Source of the DNA: Aptenodytes patagonicus | Taxonomy: Eukaryota > Chordata > Aves > Sphenisciformes > Spheniscidae | NCBI RefSeq assembly: GCF_965638725.1 | Contig: NC_134962.1 | Coordinates: 6,455,501 to 6,519,500 of the forward strand | Direction of reading: 5' to 3' | DNA length: 64,000 nucleotides | Shown here: one piece after another, positions 30,453 to 62,790 of the stretch | Numbering within the stretch: the stretch's first letter is position 1 | Layout: the number at the start of each line of letters is the position of its first letter | Translations under genes and position numbers: made by a program | Notes under the pieces: generated by a model | The model's database searches: none | The model's input: only the letters and a program-made list of their open reading frames with translations | Told to the model about the DNA's origin: nothing

Positions 30453-30453
<1 letters not shown>

Positions 30454-30555
30454 TGTATAACTTCATGGGTCTGAACAGCACGGCCGTAGCTATTCAGCCC
30501 AATGTGTCCTGCACATGCAACTGCAAAAGGTCTTTGTTCCAGAGCATGGAGATCA
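30453..30555 (+). CDS. PMEPA1: PMEPA1 first coding exon (partial gene)
   Basis: This exon encodes the first 34 residues plus one base of codon 35 of PMEPA1/TMEPAI, a single-pass membrane protein. In known family members the cytoplasmic part carries PPxY motifs that recruit NEDD4-type ligases and a SMAD-interaction motif that restrains TGF-beta signalling. The sequence shows MYNFMGLNSTA at the start, then NVSCTCNCKRSLFQSMEI. The human protein, from memory, has the same MGxNSTA and NVSCTCNCKRSLFQSMEI blocks, so the family call is firm. Two N-glycosylation sequons (NST, NVS) and a Cys cluster (CTCNC) fit the short lumenal N terminus. The membrane helix and cytoplasmic tail lie in later exons that I do not find here. 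The start was chosen because M-x-x-x-M-G-x-N-S-T matches the human arrangement. Both possible ATGs (codons 1 and 5) have T at -3. The exon ends in phase 1 before GTAAGT, as expected for codon 35 (Thr in human). Confidence 0.93.
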
Positions 30556-30561
30556 GTAAGT
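30556..30561 (+). other. PMEPA1: Splice donor of PMEPA1 exon 1
   Basis: The sequence ATCA|GTAAGT follows codon 34 (Ile) directly. GTAAGT is the optimal U1-complementary donor. Splitting the codon after its first base (phase 1) agrees with the conserved protein, where the next residue would be completed by the following exon. This fixes the exon end and shows that downstream reading through the same frame is intronic. Confidence 0.9.
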
Positions 30562-44740: not shown

Positions 44741-45778
44741 TCTTTTTCTCAACCTCTAACTTTCCTTTGGACTCCCACACCTTTTGGGCCTCCCATGGCT
44801 TTTGGGCCTCCACTTTTTTTCAGCTTCTAACTTTCCTTTGGCCTCCCACCTCTTTTCTACCTCCACTTTTTCTCAGCCTCTACTTTTATTTCAGCCTCCC
44901 ACCCCTTTTGGGCCTCCCACCCCTTTCTGGCCTCCACTTTTTCTCAGCCTCTACTTTTCCTTCGGCCTCCCACCCCTTTTGGGCCTCCCACCCCTTTTCA
45001 ACCTCCACTTTTTCCAGCCTCTACTTTACCCTTTTGGGCCTCCCACCCCTTTTGGGCCTCCCACCCCTTTCTGGTCTCCACTTTTTCTCAGCCTCTACTT
45101 TTCCTTCGGCCTCCCACCCCTTTTCGGCCTCCCACCCCTTTTCGGCCTCCACTTTTTCTTAGCTCCCGCTCCTTTTTGGCCTCCCACCCCTTTTTGGCCT
45201 TGCATACCAGTTTGTACTCCCACCTGTTTTCAGCATCCACTTTTCCTCAGCCTCTATTTTTCCTTTGGCCCCCCACCCCATTTCGGCCTCCTACCCCTTT
45301 TCTGCCTCCACTATTTGGCAGCCTCTACTTTCTTGGCCTTCTACCTCTTTTTGGCCCCCTACCCATTTTGGGCCTCCTACCCCTTTTTGCCCTTCACTTT
45401 TTCTCAACCTCTACTTCTCCCTTGGCCTCCCACCCCTTTTTTGCTTCCCACCCCTTTTGGGCCTCCCACCCATTTTTGGTCTCCACTTATTCTCAGCCTC
45501 TACTTTTCCCTTGGCTTCCTACCCATTTTTGGCCTCCTACCCTGTTACCCCTTTTTGGCCTTCACTTTCTCTCTGCTTCTACTTTTTCCTTCGGCCTCCC
45601 ACCCCTTTTGGGCCTCCCACCCCTTTCTGGCCTCCACTTTTTCACAGCCTCTACTTTTCCTTCGGCCTCCCACCTCTTTTGGGTCTCCCAGCCCTTTTCG
45701 GCCTCCACTTTTTCTCAGCCTCTACTTTTCCCTTTGGCCTCCCACCCCTTTTTTGGCCTCCCACCCCTTTTTGGGCTC
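44741..45778 (+). repeat. Minisatellite, about 14 copies of a ~71-bp pyrimidine-rich unit
   Basis: The anchor AGCCTCTACTTTTCC (with variants) recurs at 44751, 44822, 44875, 44946, 45016, 45090, 45161 (diverged), 45249, 45320, 45406, 45495, 45574, 45646 and 45716. Spacings run from 53 to 89 bp with about 71 most common. Each unit contains one to three copies of a ~17-18-bp subunit (GGCCTCCCACCCCTTTT), and the number of subunits explains the variable length. The + strand is strongly pyrimidine-biased and nearly stop-free in all three frames, which creates a 423-codon open frame (44784-46055) and others. Because the usual period is not a multiple of three, no frame is kept from copy to copy, so I do not treat these as coding. 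Confidence 0.92.
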
Positions 45779-48801: not shown

Positions 48802-51477
48802 TTGCTGTTGCTCGACTGTTGTAAAACTTGCACCCGTTTTCTTGTCCTATGATTTAGGAAAGCGTGTGAGCAGGGATGTGTTCTAGCTGTGCTGCTCTTC
48901 CTGCTTTCCCTGGTCTTCCCTGTCCCATTTTGTGTGTATGTTTGTGCCTCAGGGAGGGAGGCAAAGATGCAAGTGAAAACCTGTGGTTTTCTTAGAACAT
49001 AAATAACAGAAAATTAAATTTTTTTTGTTGTTGTTGTAGAGCTGTTCCATGTAGTCTCCAGTTGCTTGCTCCTTTGCCACACTCTTGTACTCTTTGGGGG
49101 TTTTTAGTCTTACTAGATGGATACTATTTGGAGCATGGTATAGGACACTTTAGGGATCTTGCTGCTAGCTTAATTGTGCGCCCAGCAAGGAGCAGTGTTT
49201 GCAGACATCGCTGCATGCCCAGAAAGTCTCCCCGGGCTTCTGAAAGCTGCGGTCTGCCAGACATGGCTGCCTCTATCCGATGGCTTTTTGCCTCGCCTTT
49301 GTTGTCTGGGTTCTTGTCTGCAGCTACAGCCTGGGCCAGTATTGCCAGACATCGCCACCTCCAACACCCGCTTCCTCCCAGAGCGCCCTGGTGCTGCCTG
49401 CGGAGCCGGGACCCTCGGGGAGAGATGCCCGTGCCCATCCCTGTGCCGCCTGGGCTAAAGCCCTGCACACGGGGGATCAAAACACAAACCCTGGGCAGGG
49501 AGCACCACCCGAGACCGACTCAAGGGAGGTTTAGCTTTCATTGTGGGTTTTTTTCTTGCGTTTTTAAACTGTTCCATCGTCTTCCTGGTAACTCCTGGAT
49601 GTCTCCAGCGTGGATGCCAGACTCTTGAATTTCTGTAAATGACTTGTGGGTCTCTCTCGCCTGCTGAGAGGGGATCAGTTTGGCTGAGCCGCAGCCCCTG
49701 CCCAGAGCTGTGCGCTGGGGCATGGTCAGGCGCTGCCGTCCTCCCCATGGGGAGCAAAAAGGGGTGCTGCAATTTCTGCTGGGTTTTGTGTCAGCTCTCC
49801 TGCTTCTCAAAGAGGGTGGCTGGGAATGGGTACGGAGGGTGAAGAGGAGATGCCCTCACCAAGGAGCCACTCATCTGATTTACGAGGAGATGCAGTCCTT
49901 GAACTCTTTAAAATCAAAGGGTGGAGGGTTTGTACAAAACAAAATTCACAAGGCAAAATATGTAACCAGATGAAAACGTGTGGTCTACTGATTTCTTAGA
50001 AGTTTGAGTGAATTCTGTCTGAGTGGACACACAGACCTCCCCTGTTCCCCAGAAGCTGGGTCACGCTCTGCATTCGCTGCAAAGCTCCCCTGTGAAAATG
50101 CCCATATGCATCGTTCTTTATTTTATTGTTGTGGGTTTGGGCATTTTGTTATATTAGTCTAGATGGGTTTGTTTCCATAGCTGCATACTGCTGATAAAAT
50201 CCCAGTGTAGGATCTCTCAGTCTCCCTTTGCATGCGTACCAAAAATAAATCACACGCAGTTGTCAGAAGATGAGCTGCTGCCATGGCAGGTGCCAAGCTG
50301 CGAGGAAGTTTGGGCTGGACCTTGCTGAGACTGCACGTGCATGGCATCTCGCCCTGGTGCCACCACACAGCATCCTGCTGCAGCTCCCAGCTCTGCAGGC
50401 AGCGTTGGTGCCTGGGTGGCCCCGTGGACCTAGAGCACCTGGGGAAGGAGTTGCTGCAGGAGGGATGACGTTTTGGAAATGGGGTAGGAAGCGATGGAGG
50501 CAGGGGGAGGAGAAACTCCCTGACCCTCACCTTTTTTTCAGGTAGAAAGGTATGGATGTGGTAGGGTATGTTGGTGAAGGATTGGCATCAGGTGGCTACC
50601 AGGATAATAAAACTCCTCTCTTGCTCTGAATTCAGTGTATTCACCATCAGCTGTTAATATTTCACCTCTCATCAGAAGGGCATGGGCTTTTAATGGCTAT
50701 ATAAACTAGCAGCTGCTGGGGCTATTTTTGCTTGGCTTCAGGCTATAACTCCACGGGTCCAGCCTAGGGGTGGCAGAAGGATGGAGGGTCCCCTGCAGCT
50801 GGCTGAGGTGGCTGCTGGTTGTGCCCAGGGTTGCAGGTCCCATGTGGAGCGGTGCTCCTGGGCCAGTGAGTGCTGCTGATGCCCAGGGTGGTACCACACC
50901 AGTGCCACCACCTCTGTGCGTGTGGGTCCCTCTGGTTTCCACCATCTGTACAGCTGGGTTGGAGCACGTCTCCTGGCAGAAAACCCAGTTTCTAAGAGGT
51001 AGTTATCTTTCCTTCGGGAAGAGCGAAACTAATGATTTTTGTTTTGCCAAAAGTTCTGATCAGCAGGTTGGTGCGTTTTGGTGTGGGACCAGCTGGGAGC
51101 GGTGTGTCTGCCAGGAGCGCTCGGGGCAGGTGCTGCTCCCACTGCCTGCGGCAGCGTGGTCAGGGCATGGCCAAGGGCACAGACGGGCTGTGGGAGCACC
51201 CCAGGGAAAACCTTGTCCTGAGGGTCCATGGCAGGGCGGCTGGCTGGGAGCACTTCCCCTTGCTGCTCTGCCAGGGGTGTCCTTAAACCCCTGGCTGCTC
51301 TCTCTCCTTTAATGCATCTTTTTAAGTACTGGGCAATAGTGTTTTCTTTCTGGCAGAGATGAAGGACGGCTTTTAATAGGTCTTTTGTTTTCTCTTTGTG
51401 CAGTTCCCTGGCAGTAACCTGCCATTAGCTCTAGCATTTATTTAGGGTATTTGTATTTTTGTATGTGGGGACCTACA

Positions 51478-51548
51478 ACGCTGAGAAGCCAAGGGGCTTG
51501 TCCAGGGTCACACAAGAAATACGTGGTAGAGCTGGGTCTCAACTTCAG
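51478..51548 (-). mobile_element. MIR-like ancient SINE relic in intron 1
   Basis: GGGGCTTGTCCAGGGTCACAC, followed by AAGAAATACGTGGTAGAGCTGGG and TCTCAACTTCAG, matches the MIR core in reverse orientation (gacttgcccaaggtcacac / agtggcagagctgggattcgaac). This is the clearest of the MIR relics in the window. Confidence 0.65.
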
Positions 51549-52076
51549 CTTTTCTGAATGTTGAGCTGATCTCTAGGCTTGGCGGAGAGGGACTATCTTA
51601 GTTTGTCCCCTTTTAACTGAGACAGGGAAAGCGGAAAATAAAGGCTCCATGGAAGGAAGCATTTTTTTTTTTGCTGTCTCCTGTTGGCGATCTGCACAGA
51701 TGCAGATTGCAGGATGGTTGCGTTTGGGAGTGTGAGGATGGTTATGTGTGAAACACACCAAGGCAAAGGGAAACCCAGGGTCGGTCAGGCTGGATATCCG
51801 ATGAGCTCCTTCATCTCCACTGGGTCCAGCTGCGCTGGGAACTGGGAGCTAGCCTGAAAGCTGATGCTAAACCCTGTGCCAGCGAGGAAGGGTGGGCTGC
51901 GTGTGGCCTCCCTTCCTCAATAACCTAATGCATTTTGGGAGCGATGCCTGTCGATCGCTGCAGCTGGGGTTTGCATCACTGCTCCTGTCCCGCAGCGCGT
52001 GTGTGCCTGCCTTGTCTGAGGCAGCCCCTCTGTGCTGGCAGCACAATACTCGCCTTCACTTGCCGTCAGACTGGAG

Positions 52077-52084
52077 GTCTAGAC
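52077..52084. promoter_or_regulatory. Palindromic SMAD-binding element (GTCTAGAC)
   Basis: An exact GTCTAGAC, the palindromic SMAD3/4 consensus, preceded 10 bp upstream by another AGAC half-site (CAGACTGG). In intron 1 of a TGF-beta-induced gene. Confidence 0.5.
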
Positions 52085-52650
52085 GCTCTCCCTGCCTTTT
52101 GTTATCAGGGTCACAGGTTAGGGAGCGTTCCCAGCTCCTTTTCCCTCTACTGGTCAGGAATCCTTCCCAGAATTTGGTGCTCCACTCGGGACTGCAGCGG
52201 GGACCCCTCTGGAGGGAGTCACCCCGCTACCCAAACACACTTAGATCTAAAATTATTGCGGCAGCTCCCAAAAAGAAATGTGCTTTTGAAATGCAGTCGG
52301 GATCACCCCCACTCCAGTTCTTGCAGGCACAGATGCTCAGATGACACCAGCTAAATAGAAACCTTTTAGCCCTTGCCAGTAAGTCTAGAGCAAACTGGCA
52401 AAAAGCATCGAGGACCAAGATACAAAACAAATTCAGGCCTGAGCAAAGTACTTACAAATGAAGGATGGAGCTGATGTGCTCTGTCTCTTGATTCTTAGCA
52501 TGAGATGCATCAGTCTTGGGATTTTGTTAAAATACAATGATGGAATTTTAAAGGTTTTCAGCAGATAGAAAGCAACTAAGTCCCCTAGCAACAAAGGAAA
52601 GGTTTTTCCCTTAATGCAGACTTTTTTTGACATGAAGCATTTGTGAAATT

Positions 52651-52664
52651 CCCCCCCCCCCCCC
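52651..52664 (+). repeat. Poly-C run (14 C)
   Basis: Fourteen C bases after GTGAAATT and before TTTAAATC. Confidence 0.85.
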
Positions 52665-52947
52665 TTTAAATCAAAGATGAGTTTTGCTGAAGGAGACATT
52701 TTTAATGGCTTTTAGACATTTTCAGAGATGGGACTTGAACCCTTGATGTGCATCTGCTTGTTCCCCCTGCCCCAGCCCACCCTGGCTGGCTGAGTGCTCC
52801 CGCAGCTTCAGCTTTCACCTGGCCTGGAGGGTGCCTTTGTGCTGCTGCTCAGGAGAGCAGCCCCTTGCCTGGGGGGGTGGGAGGTAAGGGGGAGGGAACA
52901 GTTCAATAAATAAGTTGGTAGCAAGTTTCTTGCATGGTTTCTTCTTT

Positions 52948-52971
52948 CCCCCCCCCCCCCCCCCCCCCCCC
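52948..52971 (+). repeat. Poly-C run (24 C)
   Basis: The longest homopolymer in the window, 24 C, follows a CTTCTTT pyrimidine stretch and lies about 300 bp from another 14-C run. Confidence 0.9.
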
Positions 52972-55371
52972 TTCCTGGCAAGAAGACATAACAAAAAATT
53001 GGCAGGTTCATACTTTTTTATTATTGAATTAAAATCTATTAAATAATAACAGTGAGCCAAAACCTGAAATCGCTATTAGGCAGTGCTCTTGGTGAAGTGA
53101 AATGCTTCTGGATCTGGCTCACTTGTGCATTTTGTGTGTATGTGCATGTGTATTATGTGTGAAGAATGAGTGTATGAAGCTCAAATAGAGGTTTTAAATA
53201 GAAATAACACTGGCAGCTCTTCCTCCGTCAATCCAAGCCTATTATGTGTCTGGCTCTTGCCAACATGAATTGCAGAGGAAGTTCATGTAAACTCCATGGC
53301 TGATTTGACAGCTGCACACCCGTGGCGAGTTCAAAGCCTGGATGCTGTTGAGCAGAAGCAATGACATTTTCCTACGTCTAGTGATTTACCCCTTTGCAGA
53401 GGGTGAGGGGGGACCGAGGGAGCCTATTTCCCACCCCAGTCCTGGCACCCGCGGTGCTGGTGCGGGGATGGGCACGAGCTGTTGGGCAGTGGTGGCATCG
53501 CCTCCTGCGCTGCTGGGGTTTGGTGCTTCCACATTTGACTGAGGGGTTGTGATTCTAGAGTCGCTGAAAACCATGACAACACAGGCGCGCAGGGTGACCG
53601 CAGCCGAGCGTTCATCAGGGACCTTGTTTTATCCTTACGGCAAAACCCACAAGTTACGGTCAGGTCAAGGCTTGAACTTCTTCCCTAAAGCTTTATCGGT
53701 GGTGTTGGATACTTCCACTCAGGTGAATGTCACTGACTTGCGCTGCCTGGGGGATGCGCAGGGGATATAGGCCATCCCACCGGCGGCGGTGGAGATACCG
53801 CAGCTGGGCAGGGTGTCAGCCACCCGCTCGTCTCCCGGGATAGCACGACTGCTGCGGAGCTCTGCTCCGTGCATCCGTGGAGGGGCTGTGCTGCAGAGCC
53901 CGGTGGGTCGGGTGGTGTTGAGCCCCTCCAGCGCCATGTCTGCAGCCCCTGGAGGCAAACCTGCGCTTTTCGCCCCGGTGGAAATCTAGTGCAGCGTGGG
54001 GAGCAAAGTGTACCTGTACACACCGTGGCAGCGGGAACAATTTGGGGTTAATTCCTCTGCGAACCTGCAATGCACCAAACGATGCTGCTTGCGTGGGGGG
54101 AAATAATGTTAAATTAAACTCTCCATAAGGGAAGAAAAGCATCCAGCCCCATTCTTTACTGCTCATTTTAGTAATTTCTTCCAGATAACCTACACATCTG
54201 TGTCGGTGCAATTAAAGCAGAATTTCTGTCTAATGAACAGTTGTAGCCCTTGGGCTATTGCGGAATGAACAGTGAAGTTGGAAACAGTCTTATTAAAATA
54301 ATAATTAAGAAACAAGGGTGGTGAGACAGAGGGAGGTGCAAAGGAGGTGGTGGTGGGATCCTATAGGGTGAGGAGCAGAGAGGAACTGCAGTCAACCTGG
54401 TTTTGAACTTCCAGGGGTCACCACCGTGACCCTCCCATAGAAGCGACTGTATGGTGCGGTTGGACCCGGGGCTGGGCACACCCCAGTCCCCCTCCCTCGC
54501 CAGGGGCATCTGGCCGTGCCATGTCACAACAAAACAGTCTTTAAAAACCAGTCTTGCACTTTGTTAAAAGCGGCTGCCTGTAGGGTAGCTGTAGGCCTGC
54601 GGGGCACTTGCTCCGTCATGGGCAGCGTTAGCCGTCCTGTTAAGCCGGATCAGCTATTCTGTGTATTTTTTTTTTTTTTGGAGATTTTGGTTCTCCAACA
54701 GCTGATAAAGCTCAGGAAGGGAGGAGAATATTTCTTGTGTTAGACAGGATTATATCTGGTTTTGCTTTTTCCAGAAAATTGTCCTTTCTCAGTAAAAAAA
54801 CATGCTGTGCACACCCACATAGTTTGCTTTAACTTTTCTTTCTCTCTTGCTCTCCTGAGGACAGTGACTGCCCAGGCTGAACTGTATCAGTGATGGAGGC
54901 CGTCCAGTTTATCTCATGTGAGATAGTTTATTCTTTTGCTCTTAAGTAAATAAAACCCCCCTCTTTTTCAGTACTAACCCTTGGAGTTATAATATCTCTC
55001 TGCAAGTCATCATTTTATGTCAATAAATCAGTTAATACTTGGAGCTGGCTTTTTCAAACTTAATACACTCCTATTTAGAAGTGCATGTGCTGCAGAAAGC
55101 TAGTGACATCTCAGATTAACAAAATTTAAAAAAAAAAGCAAATGCCATAAAAAAAAAAGGCCAAACAAATCCCACTGGAATGATACATTGGAATGATTTT
55201 AGTGGGATTTATATCTATGAGCTGTGGGGTTTCTTTTTTTTTTTTTTTCTTTTGAAATGGCTGTGAACCAGAGTGATTACTTATCATTTTCATTTTAACT
55301 CTATCTGACAAATCGTTTTAGATGGAGAAAGCAATACTGCATCTTTAAATGGCTACTCTGTCAGCGCATCT

Positions 55372-55419
55372 TGCAGGGCTTTAAATGCCCTTTGTTATCG
55401 CAGTCTAGACAGGACGCAG
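55372..55419 (+). promoter_or_regulatory. SMAD-site module, copy 1
   Basis: Starts TGCAGGGCTTTAAATGCCC and contains GTCTAGAC at 55403-55410. About 36 of 48 aligned positions match copy 2 at 55617-55663, including every base of the SMAD palindrome. Lies in an AT-rich stretch that looks like an enhancer. Confidence 0.55.
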
Positions 55420-55616
55420 GCAGAATATTTGATATGTTATAAGGCAAAGATTTGACAAGGTTGAATTAATTTACTGGCTTATTTAAAACTGAATTTCAAA
55501 ATATTTTTCCTTACAAACCTGTCTTTCTCTATCCTGTTTTTTTTTTTTTTTTCAAAGTTAGTACAGTATGTTTCAACTGTTTAGACTGGGAGAGGAGACA
55601 TTAGCTTACTGCAGCC

Positions 55617-55663
55617 TGCAGTACTTTAATTGCCCTTTTTATGACTGTCTAGACATCATGCAG
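55617..55663 (+). promoter_or_regulatory. SMAD-site module, copy 2
   Basis: Starts TGCAGTACTTTAATTGCCC and contains GTCTAGAC at 55647-55654. Shared blocks with copy 1, in order: TGCAG, CTTTAA, TGCCCTTT, TTAT, GTCTAGACA, GCAG. An additional AGAC half-site (GTTTAGAC) lies at 55579-55586. Confidence 0.55.
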
Positions 55664-60400: not shown

Positions 60401-62790
60401 GTAAACAAATACAATTGTTGACAATCTGATGGGCCCTTCGTATGTGGTTTTATGGAGGTATTATTTAGAAGATAAATGTAGCAGATAAATGCTAATACAC
60501 GAATACTGCAGTAATGACTTTGCCTGGTCAGATTGTTTCTAAGATGACCTAACAGATGAGCGGCGGAGGGTGAGTAATCTGCTATCTGAAGTTCTTTGTT
60601 CTTTCATCTCTTCTTCCTGGTCCACAGTCTCTGAGAGGGAGAACATTGGTCTCTTTAACGAGTGGAGCTTGGCATCTGGTGGGTGAAATGGCCTCTGTAA
60701 ACCAGGAGCAGTGTTCGGTGCTGCACCCTCTCTGGCAGCCTTTGGATTCCAGCTGTTGCCTGGAGCTGTTTTGGTTCTTGCTTAAATTAGAGCAGTTCAA
60801 ATGTAATGCTTAGCATAATGGGCATGTCCCCTTTCCAGGCGGGGCTGGGAAGGGTGGGCCAGGGCAGAGCTGCTTGCACCAGGCTGTGTTGCTGCCGTGC
60901 CAGGGTATTTTCCTCCATGCTGTGTGTATGAACAGGGGAGGGCGAGGGGCTGCGGTCAGACACAGTCCCAGTGCTGGCCCTGCTGCCTCTCCTGTGGGAT
61001 GCTGCAGAGTCCAAGCCCCTGCAGCTGCTCGCTGAGGAGTTGAGAGTGCTAAAATCATAACTCTGAAGGGTGACTAGATTCAGATGGCTCTTCTCAAATT
61101 CACATTCTTTAGCCTTGAGTAGAAAAAATGAGGTCCACTCTTTGGCTACATTGCTTAACCCACATCCTTTTACAGAGGCTTTGATGAGCATCTGGCATAA
61201 GAACTGCGCTTTGGCTGGACTCGATTCTGTTGAGTTTAACCCTCCGGTCCTTCCACATGCTGGTCCAAAGTGTGTCCAAATTGTGGTATAACATTTATCC
61301 CCTGCTTTCTAAAAGTGCACTCGCAGCTGGCAGGCACAAATGCAAGCTCTTGGGGCAGGCATAAAACCTGCTCTAAACCAAGCCCAGGTGGGCGTGCATG
61401 GGGACCAAGCAGACCTCAGGCCAGCTCTGTGGACCCCTCTTTGGTCCAGGCCTGCTACAGACCAGTTCAGTAATGTCAGCTCCCAACCTTTCTAGTTCTC
61501 TGCTTGCAAAAGACGGTGTGTCGGTATGTGTAAGGCAAGACGGTACAGGGTGTCCTCAGCTTTCATTTTCCAAAAGTGATTAGGACTTGTTTTGTGCCCT
61601 AATTATTGGGGCATGCAAGGTAGCAGTAGGCTCTCAGCTGTTTGTGGCAAGGACTGTCCTTTTGCGTCTCCTTGTTCTCGACGGTGCCTCTGGGCACTGC
61701 TGAAGCTGTGGTGCTCTGAAATGCCAGCAAAGACTGGGGAGGGGAGCGGGTCGGGCTGTCAAGTAGCTGACAGAAGGGATAAGGGTGTCTCTCCTCCTCA
61801 TCCTCCTCCTCAGCCTACTGGTGCCCGAGCCCCTGCCCTTGCTGCTGCCTTCAGCCGGAGATGTGGGTGCTGAGAATGGCTGAAAGTCAGACCCATCACT
61901 TGTAGTTTAGGGCAGCGTCTCTTCCTACCCATTGGCAATGAGTTTTGTTCAAAGACGGCAGCCCAGGTCTGTGTTGGAGAAAATGCGGGGTCATATCCTT
62001 CTTCTTGTGCCTGTCAAAGCCCATGGGTGGGGAGGGGAGCAGGCAGGGACCTCTGGACCAGCAGCTGAGGATGCTTGCTGTAGGATGCTAATGAAGCAGC
62101 CCAGGTTTTGGGTGCTGACGGACACTTACTGATGCTGGAAGAGGGGGACCTTGGTCCGCCCCTATTCCAAGACTTGTTTTGCATTTGATCTTTGAGGAGC
62201 TGTACAAGCTTGTTCAGAAGCCTTTAAGGTTACTGGCCTGAAACCGTTCTTGGCTGAAATCTTTGAACATCCCTGCTTGGCATCCCACCAAGCTTGTAAG
62301 TGCAGAATTTGGGGAATCACAGACAGGGAGGAAAGGATGCATGGATGCTCTTCAGCTCCAAGCTTCAAATTATTGCCAGTGCCAGTCCGATTTGGACTTC
62401 GTTTCTCCCCACCACCTTCCTGATTACTCTTGAATAGCCTCATCTGTACATGCTCAGTCGAAAAGTAGCCCTACCCTTATTTATGTCTTTTACGTGCTTT
62501 TTTTTAATGTAACTAGAGCGCTGCCATCAAGGGCTACAAGGAACCTGTTCAAACAGAAGATGCCCAGGGGTGGGGGTGGATGAAAAGATGAGAAAATTGG
62601 GAGGAGAGGGAACTGCAGTCAGGGCTGTGCACATCTCTGCTGCGTCTTGCTCTGAGTCACGCAGCCAGGGCAGCTCAGTGGATATCGGAGGTGTTAATGG
62701 AAAATCAGGGATGAAAGTGCTCGCTGCAGATTTGTGAACACTTTTCATTAATTCATCCAGTTAATTTTGCCATGTCTGGAAAAACTCTGT

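Follow-up and report, generated by a model that had tools for sequence, protein, structure and literature searches.

The first intron of PMEPA1 in the penguin Aptenodytes patagonicus may hold a candidate SMAD3/SMAD4-binding cis-regulatory element that stems in part from a local duplication, a tentative proposal derived from sequence and put slightly below an even chance. It concerns a stretch of 64,000 bases (contig NC_134962.1, positions 6,455,501 to 6,519,500 of the forward strand), referred to as the window, in which position 1 is the first base; positions beyond its end continue the same count and are called window-extended. The palindrome GTCTAGAC binds SMAD3 and SMAD4, and PMEPA1 is known from the literature as a SMAD target as well as a SMAD antagonist. 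The proposal builds on what was directly observed, namely the palindromic sites, the gene and intron that contain them, the duplication, a motif that is scarce in the genome yet in excess across the gene, and the occurrence of this motif upstream of SMAD6 and SMAD7; SMAD binding and any activity of these sites are inferred.

Sites and rarity of the palindrome

Exact copies of GTCTAGAC occur at three places in the window (52077, 55403 and 55647), and the 7-mer GTCTAGA is found at these three as well as at 50157 and 52383 and nowhere else in the window, which confirms the inventory of an earlier note on this DNA. The isolated palindrome, the two copies of the element that carry the other palindromes and the two incomplete sites are as follows.

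52077 to 52084, no strand assigned: GTCTAGAC palindrome 1, outside the duplicated element; a CAGAC half-site begins 10 bp upstream (52067)
55366 to 55419, + strand: copy A of the element, 54 bp (CTTTAAATGCCCTTTGTTATC...GTCTAGACA...GCAG), including the 55403 palindrome
55611 to 55663, + strand: copy B of the element, 53 bp (CTTTAATTGCCCTTTTTAT...GTCTAGACA...GCAG), including the 55647 palindrome
50157 to 50163, + strand: GTCTAGA 7-mer (GTCTAGAT), a single GTCT half-site, weak
52383 to 52389, + strand: GTCTAGA 7-mer (GTCTAGAG), a single GTCT half-site, weak

The palindrome is rare in the genome searched (1,352,360,349 bases in 618 contigs), where it occurs 8,349 times, i.e., once per 162 kb. At this rate 0.40 copies would be expected in the window, with a Poisson probability of 0.008 for three or more, and dinucleotide shuffles yielded a mean of 0.53, with none of the 100 shuffles reaching three copies. 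Similar expectations were obtained under order-1 to order-5 models (0.22-0.45). The value rises to 0.98 (P 0.08) if only base composition is considered, and to 1.6 (P 0.22) under an order-6 model, into which the sites themselves are absorbed. By the shuffles and the genome rate, the former estimate of about one chance occurrence in the window is too high. Among 400 order-3 simulations of the window, three copies were generated in 2 and three copies within 3.6 kb in none. On the genome scale, a uniform Poisson distribution predicts about two GTCTAGAC triples as tight as this one, and pairs spaced by 221-251 bp occur twice against about 1.6 expected, a distribution that is Poisson-like and not over-dispersed.

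Gene context

The assignment of the gene to PMEPA1 holds, as does the location of the sites in its intron 1. The reading frame at 30453 on the + strand yields the peptide MYNFMGLNSTAVAIQPNVSCTCNCKRSLFQSMEI, which we take to be the N-terminus of PMEPA1 isoform a, and stops within a split codon at the GTAAGT donor at 30556.

30453 to 30555, + strand: coding part of the first coding exon of PMEPA1, MYNFMGLNSTAVAIQPNVSCTCNCKRSLFQSMEI plus a split codon, with the GT of the donor at 30556

In 50 kb of downstream sequence, the acceptor of exon 2 was found before 71085 (window-extended), 7 kb past the window end, and the last exon, with its PPPYQ and PPPTYSE motifs, reaches a stop at 78537 (window-extended); an exon expected between these two was not located in the same 50 kb. 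Because the exon-1 piece of 31 amino acids has no match in Pfam, the gene name rests on the known PMEPA1 sequence together with the downstream exons. Intron 1 spans 30556-71084 (window-extended), i.e., 40.5 kb, and all palindrome and 7-mer sites listed above lie within it, 19.6-25.1 kb past the exon-1 donor, in agreement with the earlier placement roughly 20-25 kb inside PMEPA1.

The idea that the sites belong to a protein-coding or RNA gene was rejected, as Pfam gave no match for the eight open reading frames of 49-56 kb and Rfam, at its gathering threshold, none anywhere in the window. A short PMEPA1 isoform is known from human; an alternative promoter for such an isoform in the interval was likewise rejected, with no ATGG/GTRAG donor on the + strand of the window. 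The CpG content rises weakly at 53.5-54.25 kb (observed/expected 0.65-0.67). Intron 1 further contains a large degenerate minisatellite at 44742-45778, through which long reading frames pass and whose repeat units (GGCCTCCCACCCCTTTT-type) measure roughly 18, 53 and 71 bp. A search for the avian CR1-type tail repeat gave two overlapping matches with 1-2 mismatches, an outcome also seen in 12 of 100 shuffles.

A locally duplicated element

The palindromes at 55403 and 55647 are parts of one locally duplicated element, the copies of which are similar even without the palindrome. Copies A and B lie 245 bp apart and are identical in 42 of 54 aligned columns. Their core reaches a score of 46, a value not attained in any of 2000 local simulations (maximum 35), and the upstream arm, taken without the palindrome, gives 34, the best of 20,000 random-pair draws being 27 (some draws were skipped when too close or inside the minisatellite). 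Among 212 neighbouring pairs between 31.5 kb and the vicinity of the window end, the minisatellite at 44.5-46 kb alone outscores the two copies. In background comparisons (n=1,260), their score was reached four times, three times in or beside an N stretch of L027 and once in a GC-rich stretch of L008. The flanks of the copies are dissimilar (z 0.3 and -1.1 upstream, 1.3 and -0.8 downstream), and therefore either the copying covered 54 bp alone or 54 bp alone was retained. Since the copies represent a local duplication, two of the three palindromes trace to one event, and the notion of three independent palindromes was not borne out.

The site at 52077 was also considered as a third copy of the element and rejected, as it shares just a 14-base match (13/14) on the opposite side of the palindrome, which is equalled by 0.4% of random pairs and was one of 18 comparisons. 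Genome-wide, queries of 341 bp and 76 bp matched themselves alone; the 76-bp query from copy A missed copy B, so that such a search overlooks copies this diverged. The pattern TGCCCTTTN{6,10}GTCTAGAC occurs three times in the genome, twice at this locus, and its reversed control three times as well. For CTTTAAWTGCCCTTT, 23 exact places are listed genome-wide, including two at this locus, and 888 places are found with one mismatch at most, vs. 262 for the reversed control, which is poor and biased low because it holds CpG. No sign of a high-copy repeat family was seen with exact-block patterns and close-match queries, the latter being insensitive to diverged copies. A transposable-element origin is thus without support, as the close-match queries find this locus alone and the exact blocks indicate no high-copy family, but an old family of few copies is conceivable. 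About 160-200 bp upstream of copy A, a short inverted repeat (55167-55210; AAATCCCACTGGAATGAT / ATGATTTTAGTGGGATTT) includes two GGAATG (TEAD-type) motifs 13 bp apart.

Further copies in PMEPA1 and parallels in SMAD7 and SMAD6

Across the PMEPA1 stretch of 48.3 kb from 30453 to 78800, GTCTAGAC occurs five times, namely at 52077, 55403 and 55647 and at two places beyond the window.

66621 window-extended (contig 6522121): further GTCTAGAC, in PMEPA1 intron 1
78787 window-extended (contig 6534287): further GTCTAGAC, 250 bp past the PMEPA1 stop codon

The genome rate predicts 0.30 copies in this stretch (P 1.5e-5, or 2.6e-4 for four sites if the duplicated pair is taken as one), and order-1 to order-3 models of PMEPA1 itself predict 0.16-0.35. 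The end at 78800 was chosen after the site at 78787 had been seen; ending the gene at its stop codon leaves four copies (P 2.6e-4; 0.0035 if the pair is merged). For the whole 114 kb of window and downstream sequence, five copies are opposed to 0.70 expected (P 8e-4, or 0.006 with the pair as one).

Inhibitory SMAD genes of the same genome, found via their MH2 and MH1 domains, served as a positive control, for which the sequence surrounding their first coding exons (5.0 and 4.5 kb) was examined. Each of the two loci, presumably SMAD7 and SMAD6 according to the protein start and the neighbours, contains a single GTCTAGAC, situated 1594 bp (SMAD7) or 885 bp (SMAD6) ahead of the ATG, at an expectation of about 0.03 per locus from the genome rate. 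The mammalian SMAD7 promoter likewise contains the palindrome. Accordingly, two of the three loci taken as candidate feedback regulators feature the motif. The third one was rejected as a SKIL control, its protein being that of a DACH gene (recognised by eye), and 7 kb of this locus hold no GTCTAGAC.

SMAD7 and SMAD6, genes of TGF-beta/BMP antagonists, share the perfect palindrome with PMEPA1, in their case situated upstream of the first coding exon. They differ from it by possessing single copies at most 1.6 kb from the ATG together with an E-box, whereas the PMEPA1 sites lack such an E-box there. In both I-SMAD genes (I-SMAD, inhibitory SMAD), the E-box starts 11 bp after the first base of the palindrome (CACGTG and CACATG; L033:2194 and L034:2228), a composite arrangement of palindrome and E-box shared by two paralogous genes. 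As a further side observation, contigs C33 and C34 show parallel series of matches to SMAD-family and Ski/Sno domains with almost the same intervals between them, which would fit an assembly in which a single chromosome is represented twice, by both haplotypes.

Proposed mechanism and published elements

The excess across the gene and the parallel in SMAD6 and SMAD7 make a feedback enhancer plausible. The element would best be placed at 55.37-55.66 kb, i.e., in the locally duplicated 54-bp unit ending in GTCTAGAC, with the third palindrome 3.3 kb upstream of the duplicated pair. Upon a TGF-beta, Nodal or Activin signal, SMAD3-SMAD4 complexes would bind each palindrome as two MH1 half-sites, with help from factors acting on the neighbouring CTTTAAWTGCCCTTT-TTAT block, which by eye appears SOX-like or homeodomain-like, an unproven resemblance. 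Such binding would raise PMEPA1 transcription, and the product would sequester receptor-regulated SMADs and thereby close a negative feedback loop. Of the feedback enhancer as first suggested, the location in PMEPA1 intron 1 has stood and has been joined by the gene-wide excess and the sites at SMAD7 and SMAD6, while the independence of the palindromes and a wider cluster of SMAD motifs around them have been lost.

Several published systems resemble this arrangement. A SMAD3/ELK-1 TGF-beta element of mammalian TMEPAI/PMEPA1 was located at +1037 to +1294 of intron 1 (PMC10761476), and has in common with the proposed one the gene, the intron, the Smad3 dependence and the logic of negative feedback (PMC10761476; PMC11063908). 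In mouse embryonic stem cells, pSmad2 binds an intronic region of Tmepai (PMC3121749), and Tmepai was also reported as Smad2/3-bound under a definition that takes in the first intron (PMC4918979). A chick embryo screen listed PMEPA1 probes as upregulated, one of its tables giving the two probes p values of 0.08 and 0.0007 (PMC4371885). Regarding birds, our literature search found by title no publication on a PMEPA1 enhancer. The mouse Pmepa1 gene features a SMAD2-binding enhancer whose activity requires GTAAACA (PMC5305219; PMC9080556). This enhancer (177-bp reporter, F.3 footprint) contains SMAD half-sites too, and signalling opens its closed chromatin (PMC9080556). It differs by its need of GTAAACA for FOXO3/FOXI3, a motif that is absent from the interval here, and by three AGAC/GTCT sites not stated to be perfect palindromes, whereas the palindromes here are perfect (PMC9080556). 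In selection experiments with Smad complexes, GTCTAGAC was the most frequent site, and the artificial Smad-binding-element reporter SSS-Luc likewise repeats this 8-mer three times, at a spacing of 3 bp as opposed to 236 bp and 3.3 kb here (PMC11607640).

Weighing of alternative explanations

Nearly as likely as the feedback element, and close behind it, is the explanation that a chance palindrome was copied 245 bp away and that an unrelated palindrome happens to lie 3.3 kb off, the whole being without regulatory function. Two of the three sites indeed reside in the duplicated 54-bp element, and this is one of a number of results that weigh against a regulatory reading of the sites. If the duplicated pair is counted once, the window holds two sites vs. 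0.40 expected (P 0.06, compared with 0.008 for three separate sites). Moreover, tight triples as such are usual: of 400 simulations, 92.5% contain a palindromic 8-mer that forms a triple within 3.6 kb, and in 5% this holds for an 8-mer of the same rarity as GTCTAGAC. In the real window, seven of the 256 palindromic 8-mers form triples, compared with a simulated mean of 2.4, so that the simple model understates clustering. Four of these seven 8-mers are as rare as GTCTAGAC, which is itself one of the four; the remaining three of the four are GC-only words, and their triples are found at 22.8-24.2 and 29.7-31.0 kb. The gene-wide excess shrinks as well when the higher local rate is applied, since a 200-kb sample of the same contig holds three copies; 0.73 would then be expected gene-wide (P 9e-4; 0.0065 if the pair is merged). 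Concerning the duplicated copies, all 8 bases of the palindrome are the same in A and B, yet so are 34 of the 46 other columns, so that a preferential retention of the palindrome lacks significance (P 0.11).

The surroundings of the palindromes point in the same direction. Between 50 and 56 kb, CAGAC is not enriched (1.67/kb vs. 2.5/kb in the window) and AGAC is not in excess (7.2/kb vs. 6.8/kb), and the wider cluster of SMAD motifs once supposed here did not emerge. AGAC attains eight in 300 bp at 55.4-55.7 kb, second in rank within the window, but 7 of 20 background 10-kb stretches attain eight too. Neither AP-1 sites (TGASTCA) nor the FOX motif GTAAACA occur in 50-56 kb, the nearest GTAAACA being at 60401, and a SOX-like CCTTTGT accompanies just one of the palindromes, that at 55403, at a distance of 14 bp on its upstream side. 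Published data add to this side, as the palindrome is infrequent even in Smad2/3-bound genomic regions (PMC11607640) and the 4-bp AGAC is not enriched in SMAD peaks from chromatin immunoprecipitation (PMC5727232). Furthermore, the printed mammalian elements lie at other places, i.e., at +1037 to +1294 compared with 19.6-25.1 kb past the donor here (PMC10761476), upstream of the mouse gene compared with the intronic sites here (PMC5305219), and in an intergenic region in human (PMC6341120). On the other hand, chance and duplication are made less likely by the five GTCTAGAC across the gene, by the occurrence of this rare motif ahead of the SMAD7 and SMAD6 coding exons, and by the dissimilar flanks of copies A and B, which imply that 54 bp alone were copied or alone kept.

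A further, improbable explanation regards the palindromes as bystanders and assigns the SMAD-responsive part to a CAGA-box cluster at 49.20-49.35 kb or to the GC-rich start of intron 1. The cluster, which the earlier note leaves unmentioned, lies just outside the interval and holds the most CAGAC in 300 bp anywhere in the window.

49202 to 49351, no strand assigned: CAGA-box cluster of six CAGAC over about 150 bp, three of them within full CCAGACA boxes (49257, 49303, 49345)

Three CCAGACA within 100 bp were found in 1 of 300 simulations and in none of 20 background 10-kb stretches; within 300 bp, the respective values are 2.7% of simulations and one of 20 stretches. This cluster was selected after a scan of several motifs, and the other counts there are less striking, since within 300 bp six CAGAC are also reached by 5% of 300 simulations and nine AGAC by 21%. 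It is thus a lead and not a result. A 381-bp query of the cluster matches itself alone genome-wide, in a search that diverged copies would escape. A SOX-like CCTTTGT is situated within the cluster at 49296. Regarding the intron start, the mouse Pmepa1 intron element reportedly includes a TCF7L2 part with the motif ACTTCAAAG. This motif of the mammalian element is absent from the whole window, and TTCAAAG is absent from 29.9-33.9 kb, so that the TCF7L2 part is not evident there. The 5-bp motifs GGCGC and GGCCG crowd 29-31.5 kb and amount to 0.33/kb each in 50-56 kb. In Smad3 and Smad4 peaks, CAGAC was reported as enriched two- to three-fold and 5-bp GC motifs more so (PMC5727232), and Smad3 prefers CAGA boxes over the palindrome, which is preferred by Smad4 (PMC11063908); the SMAD3/ELK-1 element at +1037 to +1294 (PMC10761476) would likewise fit a responsive intron start.

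Least probable is a silencer, in which the palindromes would recruit a repressive SMAD4 complex of the PRDM16, SKI or SnoN type and PMEPA1 would be kept low until or unless signalling changes. The repressive regions co-bound by PRDM16 and SMAD4 in mouse neural stem cells are enriched for GTCTAGAC (PMC12259022), and a Smad4-Ski repressor complex has been reported at the SMAD7 promoter (PMC11063908), but the cells and signals (BMP4) of these reports differ.

Implications for PMEPA1 feedback

If the candidate SMAD3/SMAD4 element in intron 1 is real, it would provide a compact setting, amenable to mutation, in which to test the effect of a duplicated high-affinity SMAD site on the tuning of a feedback gene. 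It would also represent a case of a conserved regulatory loop that employs different elements in different lineages. The broader version of this idea, which we consider rather unlikely, is that avian PMEPA1 possesses its own feedback enhancer deep in intron 1, derived from a duplicated 54-bp composite SMAD4 element, that birds and mammals are wired differently in this respect, and that a rare palindrome marks SMAD6, SMAD7 and PMEPA1. On the level of the genome, this leads to the question of whether the rare perfect SMAD palindrome might be concentrated in the genes of SMAD antagonists.

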